Source: Spirochaetota bacterium (GTDB taxonomy: Bacteria > Spirochaetota > Spirochaetia > Treponematales > UBA12059). From it: a stretch of 64,000 nucleotides of DNA. This document shows positions 36,098-59,093 of the stretch, piece after piece. The stretch's first letter is position 1. Each line of letters opens with the position of its first letter. Below the pieces are notes generated by a model. The model saw only the letters and a program-made list of their open reading frames with translations. It searched no databases and was not told where the DNA came from. Position numbers and translations under genes: made by a program. Location: contig JAKLDN010000006.1 of NCBI GenBank assembly GCA_022703505.1, forward strand, positions 124,001 through 188,000, written 5' to 3'.

Positions 36098-37026
36098 ACG
36101 TGGTTCCTCGGGTCGGAGGCGTCGGAGAACCGGTTCCCGACGATGTAGAAGGAGACCGTGATGGCCGCCAGGATCACGGTCGGCCAGGTCAGCTGGTAGG
36201 GGTAGAGCATGAAGTTGTTCTTTCCCTGGTTCACCAGGTTTCCCAGGGAGATGGTGTCGATGGGGAGTCCCAGGCCGATGAAGCCCAGGAAGACCTCGGA
36301 ACCGATGGAGTACGGGATGGTCAGGGCCGCCTCCATGATCAGGATGGATACCAGGTAGGGCAGGACGTTCTTCGTGATCATCCGGCGGAGGGGGGTGCCC
36401 AGGCAGCGGGAGGCCACGTTGTACTCCGCGTCCCGGATGGTGATGACCTTGTTCCGCACGAAGCGGGCTATGCCGATCCAGCCGGTGGAGCAGAGGGCCG
36501 TCACGATGGTCCAGAATCCCGGCCGCATGATGTAGGCCAGGAGGACCAGGAAGACCGTCTGGGGGATGTTGTTGAGGACGTTGTAGAGCTCCGTCATGAT
36601 CCGGTCGAGCTTCCGGACGTAGCCCCAGAGGGCCCCGGCGATCATCCCGATCCCGACATCCAAAAGGGCGATCACGAAGCCCAGGAGCAGGGAAGTCCGG
36701 GTCCCGTACCAGGTCAGGGCCCAGATGTCCCGGCCCAGGCCGTCGGTCCCGAAGACGTGGTCCCGATTCGGGCTCAGGTTCCAGGTCTCGGTGTCCAGGT
36801 TCACCGCTCCGAGGTCCATGTGGGCGAACAGGGGATAGACGAAGCTGGCCGTCGTCAGGACCACGATGAGGGCCAGGAGGAAGATCGAGACCGGGCTCTT
36901 GAGAAAGGTGCGGAAGGTGCTCCGCCAGTAGGAATACCGGGCGTACCCCGTGCGCTCCGCGGCCGCCTCGTCGAAGGCCGCGGGTCGGAAGAGTTCGGCG
37001 GGTACCTCGGGAATCGTTCGGATCAT
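36094..37026 (-). CDS. oppC: Oligopeptide ABC transporter permease OppC
   Basis: 310 residues, ATG 37026 overlapping the oppB stop by 4 nt. About six transmembrane helices, an extended cytoplasmic N-terminus, the [24 protein letters not shown] start of the transport domain (about 93-115) and an EAA-type loop ([23 protein letters not shown]). Forms the channel with OppB. Confidence 0.92.
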
Positions 37027-37979
37027 GCGGCGGCCCCCTTTCCGGACGATTCGGCCAGCTTGATCCGGGGATCCACCAGGACCATGAGCAGGTCCCCCAG
37101 GAAAACCCCGACGACCCCGAGCACCGAGTACAGGAGTACCAGGGCCTGGACCAGGGGATTGTCCTGCTGGCGGATGGCGCTGACCAGGAGGCCTCCCATG
37201 CCGGGGATCGAATAAATGCTTTCGATCAGGAGGGATCCCGCGATGGTCAGGAGGATCTGCTGGGGGAAGTACTGGACCAGGGGGACCAGGGCGTTCCGGA
37301 GCACGTGGCCCCGCATGACCCGTTTCCACGGCAGTCCCTTGGAGACCGCGAACTTGACGTAGTCCTTGTTCTCCTCGTCCACCATGAAGCGCCGGAGCCA
37401 GATGGCGTACCAGGCGATCCCCGAGAGGGCCAGGGAGATCGTGGGGAGGACCCAGGAGACGGGGCGGTCCTCGTAGAAGACCATGGGCCAGCCCAGCAGG
37501 GCCGTCACCCATTGCTGTATGAAGAAGAGCCAGATGAGGCTGGGTATGGCCCGCACGATGGTGACGTAGACCGTGCCCGCCCCGTCCGGGAAGCGGTCCT
37601 TGAACCGGGCCATAAGGATTCCCAGGCCCAGGCCCAGGGCCATGCTCAGGGCCAGGGCCGCCAGGCCGAACCAGAGGGAATAGGGGGCCTTCTCGCCGAT
37701 GACGTCCAGAACCGGGCTGCGAGGGTAGACGGTGATTGAACGGCCCAGGTCGCCCCGGGCCAGGCCGGACAGGAAGCGCCCGAACTGGGTGAAGGGATCA
37801 TCCAGGACCCCCAGGTTGCGAAGGTAGGCGGTCCGGGCGTCCCTGTCCATGTTCACGTAGTCCTCCCGAGTGAAGTAGCCGTTCTTGGGCATGAGCCGGA
37901 GCAGGAGGAATACCGTGAGGACCACGATGGACACGGTGATCAGGGACTGTCCGAGACGTTTCAGTACATAGGCACCCAT
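37023..37979 (-). CDS. oppB: Oligopeptide ABC transporter permease OppB
   Basis: 318 residues from ATG 37979, with AGGAT-type ribosome site upstream. N-terminal MGAYVLKRLGQSLITV helix, long periplasmic loop, EAA loop (KDYVKFAVSKGLPWKRVMRGHVLRNA) and about six helices. It is separated from oppA by a 208-bp gap that holds a palindromic repeat element, so oppB-F may be expressed at a different level from oppA. Confidence 0.92.
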   Translation of the reverse strand: MGAYVLKRLGQSLITVSIVVLTVFLLLRLMPKNGYFTREDYVNMDRDARTAYLRNLGVLDDPFTQFGRFLSGLARGDLGRSITVYPRSPVLDVIGEKAPYSLWFGLAALALSMALGLGLGILMARFKDRFPDGAGTVYVTIVRAIPSLIWLFFIQQWVTALLGWPMVFYEDRPVSWVLPTISLALSGIAWYAIWLRRFMVDEENKDYVKFAVSKGLPWKRVMRGHVLRNALVPLVQYFPQQILLTIAGSLLIESIYSIPGMGGLLVSAIRQQDNPLVQALVLLYSVLGVVGVFLGDLLMVLVDPRIKLAESSGKGAAA

Positions 37980-38014
37980 GGGCGATCCTTCAAAAAAAAA
38001 ATTACTGAAAAAGC

Positions 38015-38173
38015 AAACCACAGAGTCACAGAGACACAGAGAGCGACCGGCCGGTCGGCGCCGAAGCAAGCTTCGGCGATCCCAACTCCGACAAGCTCGA
38101 CGAAGACCGAAGGTCTTCGTTGCCCCGAGGCTGACAAATAGTCAGCCTCGGGCCCTCTGTGTCTCCGTGGTTT
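38015..38173. repeat. Composite palindromic element between oppA and oppB
   Basis: Terminal inverted repeats 38015-38033 and 38155-38173 match at 17 of 19 positions (CCACAGAG/CACAGAG-type ends). Inside are four successive perfect palindromes: 38044-38057 (14 nt, no spacer); arms 38059-38067/38070-38078; arms 38100-38108/38112-38120; arms 38124-38135/38141-38152. It encodes nothing. It resembles a MITE- or REP-like element or a bank of mRNA hairpins. An A-rich tract (37992-38001) and the oppB start follow it in the transcribed direction. Confidence 0.8.
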
Positions 38174-38187
38174 TATTGTTATGAGAA

Positions 38188-40077
38188 CTACTTCGCCGCG
38201 GCCATCTCCTTGTAGAAGGCGGCCTTCAGCTGCTCATACCGCTTGGCCGTGATGGGATCCTTCTCCACGACCATGCCCTTGAACTTGAACCGGGTGATGC
38301 CGAAGCCGCCCCGGGGATACGTGAAGGGAACCACCTTGGTGATCTGGTAGGCCGTGCCGCCCATGGCCCAGGGCAGGACGTAGCAGCGGTCCAGGTAGAG
38401 GGCTTCCGCCTTGGCGAAGATCGCGTAGCGCTCGGACAGGACGGTCTTGGACATGGCGTCCTGGACCAGCTTGTCGAACTCGGGATCCGAGTACTGCCCG
38501 TCGTTGACGCCGCCGTTCGTGACCAGGCGGCTGAGCTGGGCGGCGGGGTCCGCGTAGCCGAAGCGGAAGTTGTCGTGCAGGAGGTCGAAGCGTCGGGGCT
38601 CCACCACCTCGCCGAACACGTCGTCGATGCACTGGCCCAGGGTGACCTCGATGTTCTCCTTGCCGAAGGCCTCCTCGAGCATGGCCTTGAGCAGGAGAGC
38701 CCGCTTGGTTTCCACCGCGTCGGGCAGGGAGACGTAGACCATCTGCAGGGGGAGCTTGCCGTCCACCTTGACCTCGGCGATGGGCTTGTAGTCCACCGTG
38801 GCCGGGGAGACGCCCTTGATGGTCCCCTTGCCGTCCGTGAGCTCCGCCACGGCCTTCTTGAAATAGTCCCGGGCCTTGGCCTTGTTGTAGTAGTTGCCCG
38901 CGGCCTTGATCTCCTTGACCCCGGTGTAGTCCGTGTAGTCCACGCCCTTCTCGTCGAAGATCTGGAACTCCGGCACCACCGTGTTCCGGATGATCTGGCC
39001 GGGCTTGTAGGGATCGTCCAGCTCGTTCAGCTTCACCCGGTCGATGCCGTAGTACAGGGCCTTGCGGAAGTTCAGGTTGTTGACGAAGGCCTTGAACTCG
39101 GGGTTCGAGGAAGTGAAGTTCTGGACGAACCAGTAGGTGACGGAGAAGCGGTCCGCCGAGGGCGGATCCGAGTAGATGTACTGGCCCCACTTGGACTTCG
39201 CCAGGGCCTTGACCTGGTCGGCCCCGAGGTCGGCCCGGGAGAGCTCACCCCGCTGGAACATGGCCACCTGGGTAGTCGGGTCCGGGACGTACTGGAGGGT
39301 GATCGTCTTGACGGAGATCTTGCCCGCGTCCCAGTAGTGGGGGTTCGCCTTGAGGACGATCCGCTTGGAGCGCTGCCAGTCGGAGATGTAGTAGGCGCCC
39401 GAGAAGACGAGCTTCTCCTTGGAGACCCCGAAGTCCAGGCCGACGGAATCCAGAAATTCCTTCTCCACGGGGAGGAAGAGCTCCATGACCAGGTAGGACA
39501 GGAAGAAGGGGGTGGGCTTGGAGAGCTTGTAGACCAGGGTGTACTTGTCCGGCGCGGAAATCCCGACCTTGGAGAAGTTGGCCAGGGCGTCCTCCCGGGT
39601 CATGTCCTTCTTCTTGCCCGAGTCGACATCCGAGAGGTCCAGATAATAGCCGTTGAGGCCGGCGATCAGGTTCCGCACGTCCCGGGAGAAATTCTTGATC
39701 CCGTTCTTGGGATCCGAGACGTAGCGCAGTCCTTCCACGAAATCGTCCGCCGTGATCTCCCAACGGGTCTTCTGGCCCGAGGAGTCCACGTACATCAGGC
39801 CCTGCCGGAGCTTGAAGGTCCAGGTTAGGCCGTCGGGACTCACCGTCCAGGACTGGGCCAGGGAAGGCACGAAGCGCCCGAAGCGGTCCTGTTCCACCAG
39901 GCCGTCCTGGGTGTTCGCGGCCACGCGCTGGTCCGTGGTCGTGGGGGTGTAGAAATACCGGAGGGACGAACCCTCCGACGCGTACACGGCGTAGTAACGG
40001 TCGACGCCCGCGGCCCAGGCGCCCGCGGTCGCCGCGAGGGCCATCAGGACCGCGATGATCATCGCTCTCGATTTCAT
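38188..40077 (-). CDS. oppA: Oligopeptide-binding protein OppA-like
   Basis: 629 residues with a signal peptide (about 1-23, AWA-AG). Family 5 binding-protein features: GLVEQDRFGRFVPSLAQSWTVSPDGLTWTFKLRQG near 58-92 and a long two-lobe architecture. There is no lipobox cysteine, so it is freely periplasmic. It is larger than E. coli OppA, with inserted charged segments around 150-170 and 400-470. A sigma-54-type promoter lies about 80 nt upstream. The linkage to cyanophycinase and IadA suggests peptides containing aspartate or isoaspartate. Confidence 0.9.
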   Translation of the reverse strand: MKSRAMIIAVLMALAATAGAWAAGVDRYYAVYASEGSSLRYFYTPTTTDQRVAANTQDGLVEQDRFGRFVPSLAQSWTVSPDGLTWTFKLRQGLMYVDSSGQKTRWEITADDFVEGLRYVSDPKNGIKNFSRDVRNLIAGLNGYYLDLSDVDSGKKKDMTREDALANFSKVGISAPDKYTLVYKLSKPTPFFLSYLVMELFLPVEKEFLDSVGLDFGVSKEKLVFSGAYYISDWQRSKRIVLKANPHYWDAGKISVKTITLQYVPDPTTQVAMFQRGELSRADLGADQVKALAKSKWGQYIYSDPPSADRFSVTYWFVQNFTSSNPEFKAFVNNLNFRKALYYGIDRVKLNELDDPYKPGQIIRNTVVPEFQIFDEKGVDYTDYTGVKEIKAAGNYYNKAKARDYFKKAVAELTDGKGTIKGVSPATVDYKPIAEVKVDGKLPLQMVYVSLPDAVETKRALLLKAMLEEAFGKENIEVTLGQCIDDVFGEVVEPRRFDLLHDNFRFGYADPAAQLSRLVTNGGVNDGQYSDPEFDKLVQDAMSKTVLSERYAIFAKAEALYLDRCYVLPWAMGGTAYQITKVVPFTYPRGGFGITRFKFKGMVVEKDPITAKRYEQLKAAFYKEMAAAK

Positions 40078-47140: not shown

Positions 47141-47180
47141 GAAAGCACGGGGCCGCTCGAAGGAGCGGCCCCGTGCTTTC
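47141..47180. terminator. Bidirectional 18-bp perfect hairpin terminator
   Basis: Arms 47141-47158 and 47163-47180 are perfectly complementary over 18 bp with a 4-nt loop; the base is A/T (GAAAGC...GCTTTC). It follows the aminotransferase stop on the minus strand and lies ahead of the TetR promoter. Confidence 0.8.
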
Positions 47181-56727: not shown

Positions 56728-57578
56728 AGACCTTTTCCAAGCGCCCCTCCCCCTCGGAACGGCTCCGGGGGACGGCCTGTCCGGTCTGCGGCTCCCCGGA
56801 AACCCGCCCCCTCTGGGACCTCGGGGACTTCGCCTTCGCGCGCTGTGCCGGCTGCGGCCACGTCTACCAGAACCCCCGCCCGGATCCCGCGGACCTGACT
56901 CTGCGCTACGACGAGGAATACCTCGAGTACGAGGTTCGGAACGCCCTTCCCTACCTCCGCCTCATGCTCCTGGGCCTTGCGGACCTGGGCTTCGAGAGGA
57001 TCGAGGCCGCCCTTCCCGAAGGCCGGAGCTTCCTGGATGTCGGCTGCGCCACGGGAGCCCTGGTGGAGCACGCGGCGCGGCGGGGCTGGGAGGCGACGGG
57101 GGTCGAGGTCTGCCGTCCCGCGGCGGAGTACGGACGGAGAGTTCGGGGCGTCACGATCCTGGAGGGCAGCCTCCGGGACGCGGCCTTCCCGGACGACGGC
57201 TTCGACTTCGTGCATTCCAGCCACGTCATCGAGCACGTACCCGAGCCCGGGGCCTTCCTGGCGGAGATCCACCGGATCCTGAAACCCGGAGGCTGGTGCG
57301 TCACGGTGACCCCGAACCGGACCAGCCTGCAGGCCGCCCTCTTCGGCTCCGGATGGCGCAGCGTCATCCCGGACCACATGCACCTGTTCTCGCGCCCCGG
57401 TCTCCTCCGGTTGGTCCGGGATTCGGGACTCGCGCCCCTCCGGACCGCGACCTGGGGAGGGATCGCCCTGGGCCTGGCCCCGGCACCCCTCAAGGCCGCC
57501 CTGGATCGGGCAGCCAAGCTACTCGGCTTCGGGGATGTCCTGGCGGTGCTGGCCCGGAAACCGCCCGCCGGAACCTAG
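56724..57578 (+). CDS. Class I SAM-dependent methyltransferase with zinc-ribbon start
   Basis: 284 residues. An N-terminal zinc-ribbon (CPVCGS near 20-25; CAGCGHVYQNPRP near 41-53) precedes a Rossmann methyltransferase with FLDVGCATGALVEHA (about 98-112) and HVIEHVPEP. This architecture is common in methyltransferases that modify surface glycans or lipids. It is translationally coupled to the upstream GNAT gene, suggesting one modification pathway. GGGGAGGG precedes the ATG. Confidence 0.8.
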   Translation: MKTFSKRPSPSERLRGTACPVCGSPETRPLWDLGDFAFARCAGCGHVYQNPRPDPADLTLRYDEEYLEYEVRNALPYLRLMLLGLADLGFERIEAALPEGRSFLDVGCATGALVEHAARRGWEATGVEVCRPAAEYGRRVRGVTILEGSLRDAAFPDDGFDFVHSSHVIEHVPEPGAFLAEIHRILKPGGWCVTVTPNRTSLQAALFGSGWRSVIPDHMHLFSRPGLLRLVRDSGLAPLRTATWGGIALGLAPAPLKAALDRAAKLLGFGDVLAVLARKPPAGT

Positions 57579-57600
57579 CCGACGGCCCGGGACCCCGGCC

Positions 57601-57630
57601 TTGCCCACCGGTTCCCCCTTCGGCTAGGAT
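57601..57630 (+). promoter_or_regulatory. Promoter of the MATE gene (leaderless type)
   Basis: TTGCCC (57601-57606), 18 bp, TAGGAT (57625-57630), then 7 nt to a GTG at 57638. The in-frame ATG at 57629 overlaps the -10 box, which argues for the GTG. Confidence 0.45.
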
Positions 57631-57637
57631 GCACCCC

Positions 57638-59017
57638 GTGCGAATCCCCCCAGGCTCATCCACCCCGCTATCCCGGTTCCTCTCGGATCGGAGATTCTTC
57701 ACGGACCTCTTCCGCATCGCCATCCCGATAGCCCTCCAGAACCTCGTGGCGTCCTCGGTGAACATGCTGGACACGATCATGGTGGGCCGCCTGGGAGCCG
57801 TGGAGCTCGCGGCGGTGGGCCTGGGGAACCAGGTCTTCTTCCTCCTCCTGCTCCTCTTGTTCGGGATCGGATCCGGCTCCGGGGTGTTCACCTCCCAGTA
57901 CTGGGGAGCCCGGGACCAGGCGGGGATACGGAGGACCGCGGGCATGGCCCTGGCCCTCGGACTCTCGGCGTCCCTGGTCTTCACGGCCGCGTCCCTGGCG
58001 GCCCCCCGGGCCATCCTGGGTCTGTATTCCCGGGACCCCGCGGTCCTGGACGCGGGGGCCGTCTATCTCCGCATCGCAGCGCTGAGCTACCCCGCCCTGG
58101 CCGCCAGCTTCATCTTCTCCATGGCTCTCCGGGGGGTGGAACGGGTCCGGCTCCCCCTTGCGGCGACCGTAATCTCCCTCTCCGCCAACGCCTTCCTGAA
58201 CTGGGTCCTCATCTTCGGGACCCTGGGATTCCCGGCCCTGGGGGTGCGGGGGGCGGCCATAGCCACCGTCGTCTCCCGCTGGATGGAGGCCGCCATCGTC
58301 CTGGTCGTCACCTACGCGAAAAAGTATCCCCCCGCGGGATCCCTCCGGGAGCTGACGGACTGGACCCGGCCCTACGTCCGGAGGTTCACCGGGATCGTCC
58401 TTCCCGTGGTCTTCAACGAGGCGGCCTGGGCCCTGGGCATCACCTTCTACAACGGGATCTTCGCGCGGATCTCCACGGAGGCCATCGCGGCGTTCAACAT
58501 CCAGAGCACGATCTCCCAGCTGTCCATGGTCCTGTTCATGGGCACCGCGAACGCCTCGGCGGTAATGCTGGGAAAACGGATCGGGGAAGGCAACCGGGAG
58601 GGGGCCTACGACTGGGCAGGCCGCTTCGCCGTGCTCGGCCCCGTCCTGGGCACCGCGATCGGAATCCTGCTGCTGCCGACGATCCCGGCGCTGCCCATCC
58701 TGTTCCGGCTGGAGCCCGGGGTCCTGTTCCAGGCCGGCGCGATGGTCTGCTGTCTGGCCGCGGTCTTCCCGATCAAGGTCTTCAACCTCCACATCGTGGT
58801 GGGGGTGTGCAGGTCCGGCGGGGACACCCGGTTCGCGGCCTTCTTCGACATCTTCGGGGTCTGGCTCGTGGGGGTGCCCTTGGCCGCCCTGGGCGCCTTC
58901 GCGTGGAACCTCTCGCCCTGGGCCGTGTTCCTCCTCCTCTGCATGGACGAGGCGGCCAAGTTCGGCCTGGGTCTCTGGAGGCTGCGGTCCCGGAAATGGC
59001 TCAGGGACGTGACGTGA
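57638..59017 (+). CDS. MATE-family multidrug/cation exporter
   Basis: 459 residues with about twelve transmembrane helices. IALQNLVASSVNMLDTIMVGRLGAVELAAVG (about 27-57, given by position) is the MATE N-terminal signature, and GIGSGSGVFTSQYWGARD the second. Exports cationic drugs or metabolites in exchange for Na+ or H+. The substrate is unknown. Its stop codon lies inside the terminator hairpin that follows. Confidence 0.87.
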   Translation: MRIPPGSSTPLSRFLSDRRFFTDLFRIAIPIALQNLVASSVNMLDTIMVGRLGAVELAAVGLGNQVFFLLLLLLFGIGSGSGVFTSQYWGARDQAGIRRTAGMALALGLSASLVFTAASLAAPRAILGLYSRDPAVLDAGAVYLRIAALSYPALAASFIFSMALRGVERVRLPLAATVISLSANAFLNWVLIFGTLGFPALGVRGAAIATVVSRWMEAAIVLVVTYAKKYPPAGSLRELTDWTRPYVRRFTGIVLPVVFNEAAWALGITFYNGIFARISTEAIAAFNIQSTISQLSMVLFMGTANASAVMLGKRIGEGNREGAYDWAGRFAVLGPVLGTAIGILLLPTIPALPILFRLEPGVLFQAGAMVCCLAAVFPIKVFNLHIVVGVCRSGGDTRFAAFFDIFGVWLVGVPLAALGAFAWNLSPWAVFLLLCMDEAAKFGLGLWRLRSRKWLRDVT

Positions 59018-59079
59018 TTTCCTGTCGGAAAATATAGTTTTCGGACAGGAAATCACGGCGCTGAAGCTGCGCTTCAGCG
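59013..59079. terminator. Terminator hairpin and second palindrome after the MATE gene
   Basis: Arms 59013-59032 and 59038-59057 pair over 20 bp with one mismatch, including AAAA/TTTT next to the loop. A second perfect hairpin follows (59059-59067 with 59071-59079). They lie between convergent genes and may serve both. Confidence 0.75.
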
Positions 59080-59093
59080 AATTCCCGGATCCA

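Follow-up and report, generated by a model that had tools for sequence, protein, structure and literature searches.

A REP-like two-hairpin module at gene ends in Spirochaetota bacteria, with one hairpin that varies in sequence and keeps its pairing

The hairpin unit between oppA and oppB and its dispersed relatives

The DNA analysed here (the window) comprises 64,000 nucleotides of a Spirochaetota bacterium (Treponematales; UBA12059), positions 124,001 to 188,000 of contig JAKLDN010000006.1 of assembly GCA_022703505.1. Within it, an oppA-like and an oppB-like gene are separated by a gap with a non-coding unit of 159 bp (38015-38173). This unit consists of two head-to-head copies, A and B, of a dispersed two-hairpin module resembling the repetitive extragenic palindromes (REPs). 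Each module includes a conserved hairpin and a second, variable hairpin that shares its last base. The conserved hairpin follows the pattern CGnnGAAGC..GCTTCnnYGCC and has a stem of 11 bp, the variable hairpin has one of 12 bp, and a C-G pair stands at the foot of both (Table 1).

A preliminary description, made from the sequence by a model, had reported palindromes of 14, 9+9, 9+9 and 12+12 bp in this gap, and these are present as described. The 9+9 hairpins are located at 38059-38078 and 38100-38120, the second extending to 38098-38122. The number of palindromes given there was correct, but they are arranged as two pairs and not as a single row of four. The fold of the 159-bp stretch has a predicted energy of -90.5 kcal/mol versus -52.6 ± 4.1 kcal/mol for shuffled sequences (z -9.3; 0 of 200 as good). 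The window contains 15 perfect hairpins (stem of at least 9, loop of 2-14), including three in the unit and one in the hairpins at the MATE gene, versus 10, 7 and 4 in three shuffles of the window, where no stem exceeded 10. The assertion that such a structure is far beyond chance thus holds. An inverted-repeat search of the unit also revealed 26-nt inverted arms, 81% complementary, at 38008-38033 and 38155-38180. The covariance model described below matched module A with an E value of 0.0025 and module B with one of 9.1e-13. The variable hairpin of module A is shortened, and its paralogue (L002) possesses a full 12-bp stem with a 3-nt loop. As to the suggestion that orthologous opp operons might lack the unit, the only orthologue compared, that of genome G002, has it at the same place, and the module B variable hairpin carries a paired double change there. 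The sequence directly after the hairpins has no T run of the kind seen in intrinsic terminators, and Rfam gave no matches at the gathering score in the window.

A DNA search with the whole unit returned 17 rows in its own genome, two of them within the unit itself. Searches with the two conserved hairpins returned 13 and 49 rows and none in reversed controls, many of the 49 being the two strands of one palindrome. A covariance model was built from 28 modules, and 150 candidates per genome were scored with it and counted at E <= 0.01, so the numbers of modules may be low. The source genus contains at least 78 matches in the own genome (G000), at least 41 in G001 and at least 66 in G002, and a second genus at least 31, 39 and 14 (G004, G005 and G006). 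A further genome of the family (G010) yielded a single match, and none was found at this threshold among the 150 candidates scored in each of the other 16 of the 23 family genomes; several of the genomes compared are fragmentary metagenome-assembled genomes (MAGs). An order-wide scan of 291 genomes with stricter filters gave 12 genomes with matches at E <= 0.001, namely the six multi-copy carriers and six genomes of another family with 1-4 matches each. A pattern scan of named genomes found 25 stretches, and 19 of these belong to spirochaete MAGs; five matches in unrelated bacteria (Actinospica, Conexibacter, Burkholderia, Sphingobium and an actinobacterial MAG) had no good variable hairpin.

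The preliminary description had asked for a search for further copies, and dispersed ones were found by both the DNA search and the covariance model. Since they exist, a unit without other copies, the outcome named there as speaking against a mobile element, is not what was found. The likeness noticed there between this unit and the hairpins after the MATE gene (59013-59082) proved to be real, as the latter form a third module of the same family. A literature search, with subscription journals mostly outside its coverage, found no description of this module family.

Solo modules and tandem arrays are common, and inverted doublets with flanking repeats, such as the unit between oppA and oppB, also exist. 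In tandem arrays (L075, L288, L292, L131, L136 and L140) the loop, inner arm, conserved hairpin and spacer are repeated, and only the unit adjoining the gene has the full palindrome. A further perfect hairpin of the window, at 47141-47180, has an 18-bp stem, a loop of 4 nt and no adjoining conserved hairpin, and the model scores it only at E 0.3.

Table 1. Features of the oppA-oppB gap and of the MATE-gene module (window coordinates)
Feature	Position	Strand	Basis or remark
oppB-like permease gene, BPD_transp_1	37023..37979	-	downstream of the 159-bp unit
Left CCAC(A/G)GAG repeat arm, period 8: CCACAGAG-TCACAGAG-ACACAGAG	38016..38041		sequence; copies genome-wide
Module A variable hairpin, shortened loopless 14-nt palindrome CGACCGGCCGGTCG	38044..38057	-	sequence, model
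Module A conserved hairpin GGCGCCGAAGCAAGCTTCGGCGAT	38057..38080	-	13 rows in own genome, 0 in reversed control
Spacer separating head-to-head modules A and B	38081..38097		sequence
Module B conserved hairpin CGACGAAGACCGAAGGTCTTCGTTGCC	38098..38124	+	DNA search, covariance model
Module B variable hairpin, 12+12 bp, 5-nt loop	38124..38152	+	orthologue comparison, model
Right CCAC(A/G)GAG repeat arm, inverted	38155..38172		sequence
oppA-like solute-binding protein gene, SBP_bac_5	38188..40077	-	stop ~35 nt from module B
MATE-family transporter gene (MatE)	57296..59017	+	ends inside third module
Third module variable hairpin; outer arm holds MATE stop codon 59015-59017	59013..59057	+	arms co-vary, three species
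Third module conserved hairpin GGCGCTGAAGCTGCGCTTCAGCGAAT	59057..59082	+	model match 59013-59079, minus strand, E 0.00013

Pairing of the variable hairpin and its position at stop codons

Covariation was assessed in one length class (variable hairpin of 27-29 nt, few mismatches) with all its 32 modules included, and 98.4% of cells are paired. The covariation score was 0.460 versus 0.129 for shuffled sets (reached in 0 of 500), and it did not exceed 0.056 when the arms were slid. Among the 360 cells of the variable stem, 85 are changed on both sides, two on one side, and six are unpaired. As these modules had been chosen for having the hairpin, a second count was begun from the conserved hairpin alone. 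Beside 150 distinct conserved hairpins, the variable hairpin was perfect in 92 cases, had one mismatch in 19 and two or three in 8, and was missing in 31; in 19 of the 39 cases belonging to the last two groups another conserved hairpin follows within 110 nt (inner tandem units). Mismatches occupy 56 of 1815 stem positions, comprising 11 G.T, 11 A.C and 34 others. The equal counts of G.T and A.C indicate that the RNA of neither strand shows a preference for G.U.

Changes at orthologous sites were scored in 19 hand-picked comparisons of alignable orthologues of equal length, with one dependent comparison left out; two MATE comparisons among them share G000. In the 255 stem pairs compared, 232 are unchanged, 14 are changed on both sides and paired, and nine are changed on one side. 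If the arms changed independently, 1.3 two-sided changes would be expected versus the 14 observed. Some flanks had no good orthologue, and some low-identity matches were discarded by eye. Five pairs were unscorable, their stems differing in length or wholly (L136/L180, L066/L194, L059/L196, L074/L201 and L076/L087); L061/L185, which shows one-sided changes, was left unscored together with L068/L130, L228/L229 and L138/L125. Three double changes are found in one stem between close species (L135/L123), and the variable stem at the MATE site differs in all three species yet stays paired. In three of the unscorable pairs (L066/L194, L136/L180 and L059/L196), wholly different stems occupy one orthologous site. 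At two orthologous sites, MATE in G001/G002 and L052/L093, the loops are exact inversions of each other.

The modules are polar, with the side of the variable hairpin facing the 3' end of the neighbouring gene. This was counted in 101 modules without the CCAC repeats considered below, of which 74 have, on that side, a convergent open reading frame (ORF) of 100 aa or more whose end is no further than 150 nt away. The stop codon abuts the variable hairpin or lies inside it in 45 of these 74, versus 2 of 64 on the side of the conserved hairpin; the ORFs were called mechanically, so that single cases may be in the wrong frame. Abutting stops of solo modules are TAG in 20 of 23 cases, with two TGA and one TAA, and the stops overlapping the variable hairpin are TGA in 13 of 22. 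The background of TAG, 32 of the 82 long ORFs of the window, is rough because overlapping ORFs were counted. A universal TAG target was considered and is ruled out by the abutting TGA and TAA stops and by the 13 overlapping TGA stops.

This polarity and the very stable fold of the unit would be expected if the hairpins served as mRNA 3'-end stabilisers, terminators or attenuators and were kept paired by selection alone, through point mutations followed by compensating ones. The variable hairpins of L053, L056 and L136 even resemble bidirectional terminators with A/T tracts. However, one-sided states are nearly absent in the variable stem (2 of 360 cells), and compensation in RNA should leave G.U intermediates, whereas G.T is no commoner than A.C. 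Several paired changes have accumulated in single stems between close species (L135/L123, MATE), and inner arms hold copied codons of gene ends, as described in the next section. Selection alone therefore seems an unlikely explanation.

Gene-end copies, flanking repeats and the copying process

The SpoIIE-domain gene at L079 ends in VIESL-stop, and in G001 and G002 it has the same end and no hairpin. In G000 this end forms the outer arm of the palindrome, and its inverted copy abuts the conserved hairpin. Similarly, the VTYRG-stop end at L075 is native in G001, which has no module there, and in G000 it constitutes the outer arm, accompanied by an inverted inner arm. At L328/L359, where G006 has no module, the arm starts with native codons, R and stop (KR-stop). 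Since the module-free sites show the outer arm to be the native gene end, the inner arm is the inverted copy. The RNase Y gene ends in EYAR-stop in all 16 loci compared out of 20, and among these an inverted copy of the end occurs only in G000-G002. In G001 and G002 it is accompanied by an extra module, absent from G000, whose palindrome includes the codons RIVEYA and which has a direct repeat of ~8-10 bp. In a gene ending in VDGGLAM-stop, which we take to be FabG-like, synonymous and stop codons differ between G000 and G002, and each palindrome matches its own gene.

An ORF that is presumably MnmE-like is not interrupted by the module in any of the three species of the source genus (L101 in G002, L108 in G001 and L150 in G000). 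The module arm in G000 and G001 corresponds to the codons APRLA and is probably native, since in G002 the codons APRIA lie outside the palindrome, which is a different one there. The same ORF also holds a GAGCTCTGTCCCC repeat in all three species, the order of the two elements being swapped in G002; both resemble in-frame palindromic insertions.

It can be supposed that insertion itself makes the palindrome, an integrating element copying the flanking gene end in inverted form so that the palindrome marks the event. The gene end is free of the hairpin in two relatives at L079 and in one at L075, and at both sites the inner arm extends precisely to the conserved hairpin. The second RNase Y module, with its inverted RIVEYA codons and short direct repeat, agrees with this supposition, as does one clean insertion (L287 versus G006), whose ends are inverted and which shows a 3-bp repeat of TAG; for the unit between oppA and oppB no target-site duplication was established. 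However, the stems of composites flanked by CCAC arms are of standard size and do not derive from genes, and the arms co-evolve long after integration, which makes this reading decidedly unlikely. A related scenario, in which a conserved hairpin arrives at a stop codon and primes an inverted copy of the gene end, with later rounds renewing the copy and adding units, is rather unlikely. If true, it would mean that integration itself manufactures the palindrome from the host and that each copy has a gene-specific arm.

The CCAC repeats require separate consideration. Repeats of the CCAC(A/G)GAG / CCACAGAG type occur elsewhere in the own genome (19 rows, 0 in the reversed control), and a literature search on CCACAGAG repeats turned up no published account. 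In fetched loci, 141 distinct modules were screened for a CCAC motif in the 40 nt beyond the variable hairpin, and it was present in 40 and missing in 101. The preliminary description had proposed a miniature mobile element related to such repeats. The unit does lie within them, but the arms do not define the family, as they would in a miniature inverted-repeat transposable element (MITE), whose copies are defined by terminal inverted repeats. If such a transposon carried the hairpins as cargo, it would be natural for the unit and 40 modules to adjoin CCAC repeats and for the hairpin core to be flipped whole between CCAC arms in two species (L004/L104). Against this, 101 modules do without the motif, and CCAC arms also occur without hairpins and with unrelated middles; at one orthologous site, for instance, hairpins lie between CCAC arms in G002 and are absent in G000. 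The cargo hypothesis is accordingly very improbable. A gene origin of all palindromes was likewise discarded, because 30 of the 40 composite copies are situated 11-50 nt from the gene, beside CCAC arms. In both genera, period-8 elements of the CCAC(A/G)GAG and CGCCGAG types are found at gene ends (L022 versus L095, L361, L222-L224), where they alternate with modules at the same sites.

On balance, we consider it probable, with some reserve, that the module is a REP-like element in which DNA template switching homogenises the arms and at times extends them into genes. The copying would occur at replication. The nascent strand would fold back at the hairpin and copy one arm onto the other, the copying would sometimes run on into the gene end, and the strand would then rejoin its own template beside the conserved hairpin. 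The outcome would be homogenised arms, occasionally inverted loops and palindromes extended across stop codons. In the parts of the template-switch literature used here, switching between arms is described as homogenising them and inverting spacers (PMC8604942), perfect stems can be created in one event, and loop inversion is regarded as a sign of the interstrand route (PMC8794818). Homogenised arms together with loop inversion fit the pattern seen in the modules.

Several observations weigh against template switching as a sufficient account. The modal size of the variable hairpin is fixed (12-13 bp, short loop), which random switching alone would not achieve. In every case the inner arm stops at the conserved hairpin, which indicates that something sets this boundary. 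The nine one-sided changes at orthologous sites mean that arms also drift apart, and beside 31 of the 150 conserved hairpins there is no variable hairpin. L285 is a weaker example of gene-end copying, because in G005 the gene end LREGA-stop has no conserved hairpin but is accompanied by an imperfect palindrome with 10 of 12 arm positions matching (by eye). The regular size and the exact boundary need an extra factor, be it a structural limit, selection or a palindrome-making insertion.

With less certainty, the modules seem to have spread by some route and to be tolerated or kept just past stop codons. There they may shield the 3' ends of mRNAs, or, in the gap between oppA and oppB and by analogy with the REPs between malE and malF, reduce the level of the downstream transcript; the mRNA stability or attenuation structure suggested in the preliminary description would be a role of this kind. 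The origin and upkeep of perfect hairpins is an old question, for which this family offers many replicate hairpins in close species, several of them with a coding arm that reveals which side was the template. With it, template switching could be tracked at known hot spots in bacteria. The family also shows how gene ends can acquire hairpins and how repeats can move stop codons.

Comparison with known systems

The attC sites of integrons, with their R and L boxes and GTTRRRY core, are recognised as a folded strand, and structure outweighs sequence there too. Some module copies other than those of the unit between oppA and oppB have A/T tracts beside the hairpins. The mobile repetitive and double-hairpin elements of mitochondria are likewise hairpin repeats, sometimes double; they differ in being organellar, and gene-end copying is not described in the part of the account compared (PMC2800124). 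In hairpins made by template switching and in quasipalindrome correction, as far as the excerpts compared describe them, arm copying likewise creates or repairs stems, and loops are inverted (PMC8794818, PMC8604942). Those hairpins are scattered single events, whereas the modules represent recurrence within a single dispersed repeat family tied to gene ends.

The CGTC REPs are palindromic, are reported in Spirochaetes and have no known transposase according to the sections compared (PMC3733652). According to the same sections, their stems measure 8-9 bp and start with AT, and the tail is CCA-like (PMC3733652). Compared by description, the modules share none of these features, their stems being 11 and 12 bp long with a C-G foot.

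The nearest known kind is represented by REPs and by their paired forms, the REPINs. Like the modules, the GTAG REPs and REPINs are short dispersed hairpins situated mostly after genes, and inverted pairs, often seen among them, occur among the modules too. The TAG of a stop codon is frequently provided by the end of a GTAG REP (PMC3733652), and REPIN spacers retain the capacity to form a hairpin via compensatory changes (PMC3116915), both as stated in the parts of these papers used. Some TAG-abutting modules (TAG being the stop in 20 of the 23 abutting solo modules) read GTAG at the foot, and many modules have no TAG. A linkage to RAYT (Y1_Tnp) transposases was examined and rejected, as the loci of the five Y1_Tnp genes in the own genome (16674 bases) contain no model matches. 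These five RAYT-like genes (L080-L084) are flanked, on one side or both, by GGGGACAGAGCTC / GAGCTCTGTCCCC-like repeats (by eye), a family distinct from the modules.

Unlike REPs, the modules consist of two adjoining hairpins, one of which differs in sequence in nearly every copy; a palindrome sequence shared among copies is found in the conserved hairpin and not in the variable one. G.T pairs are rare in the modules and, in the part of the account compared, often seen in GTAG REPs (PMC3733652). Furthermore, host gene sequence can be found copied in inverted form in an arm of the module, a feature absent from those portions of the REP accounts that were compared. The variable, gene-copying hairpin thus sets the modules apart from the known REP-like elements as those accounts describe them.
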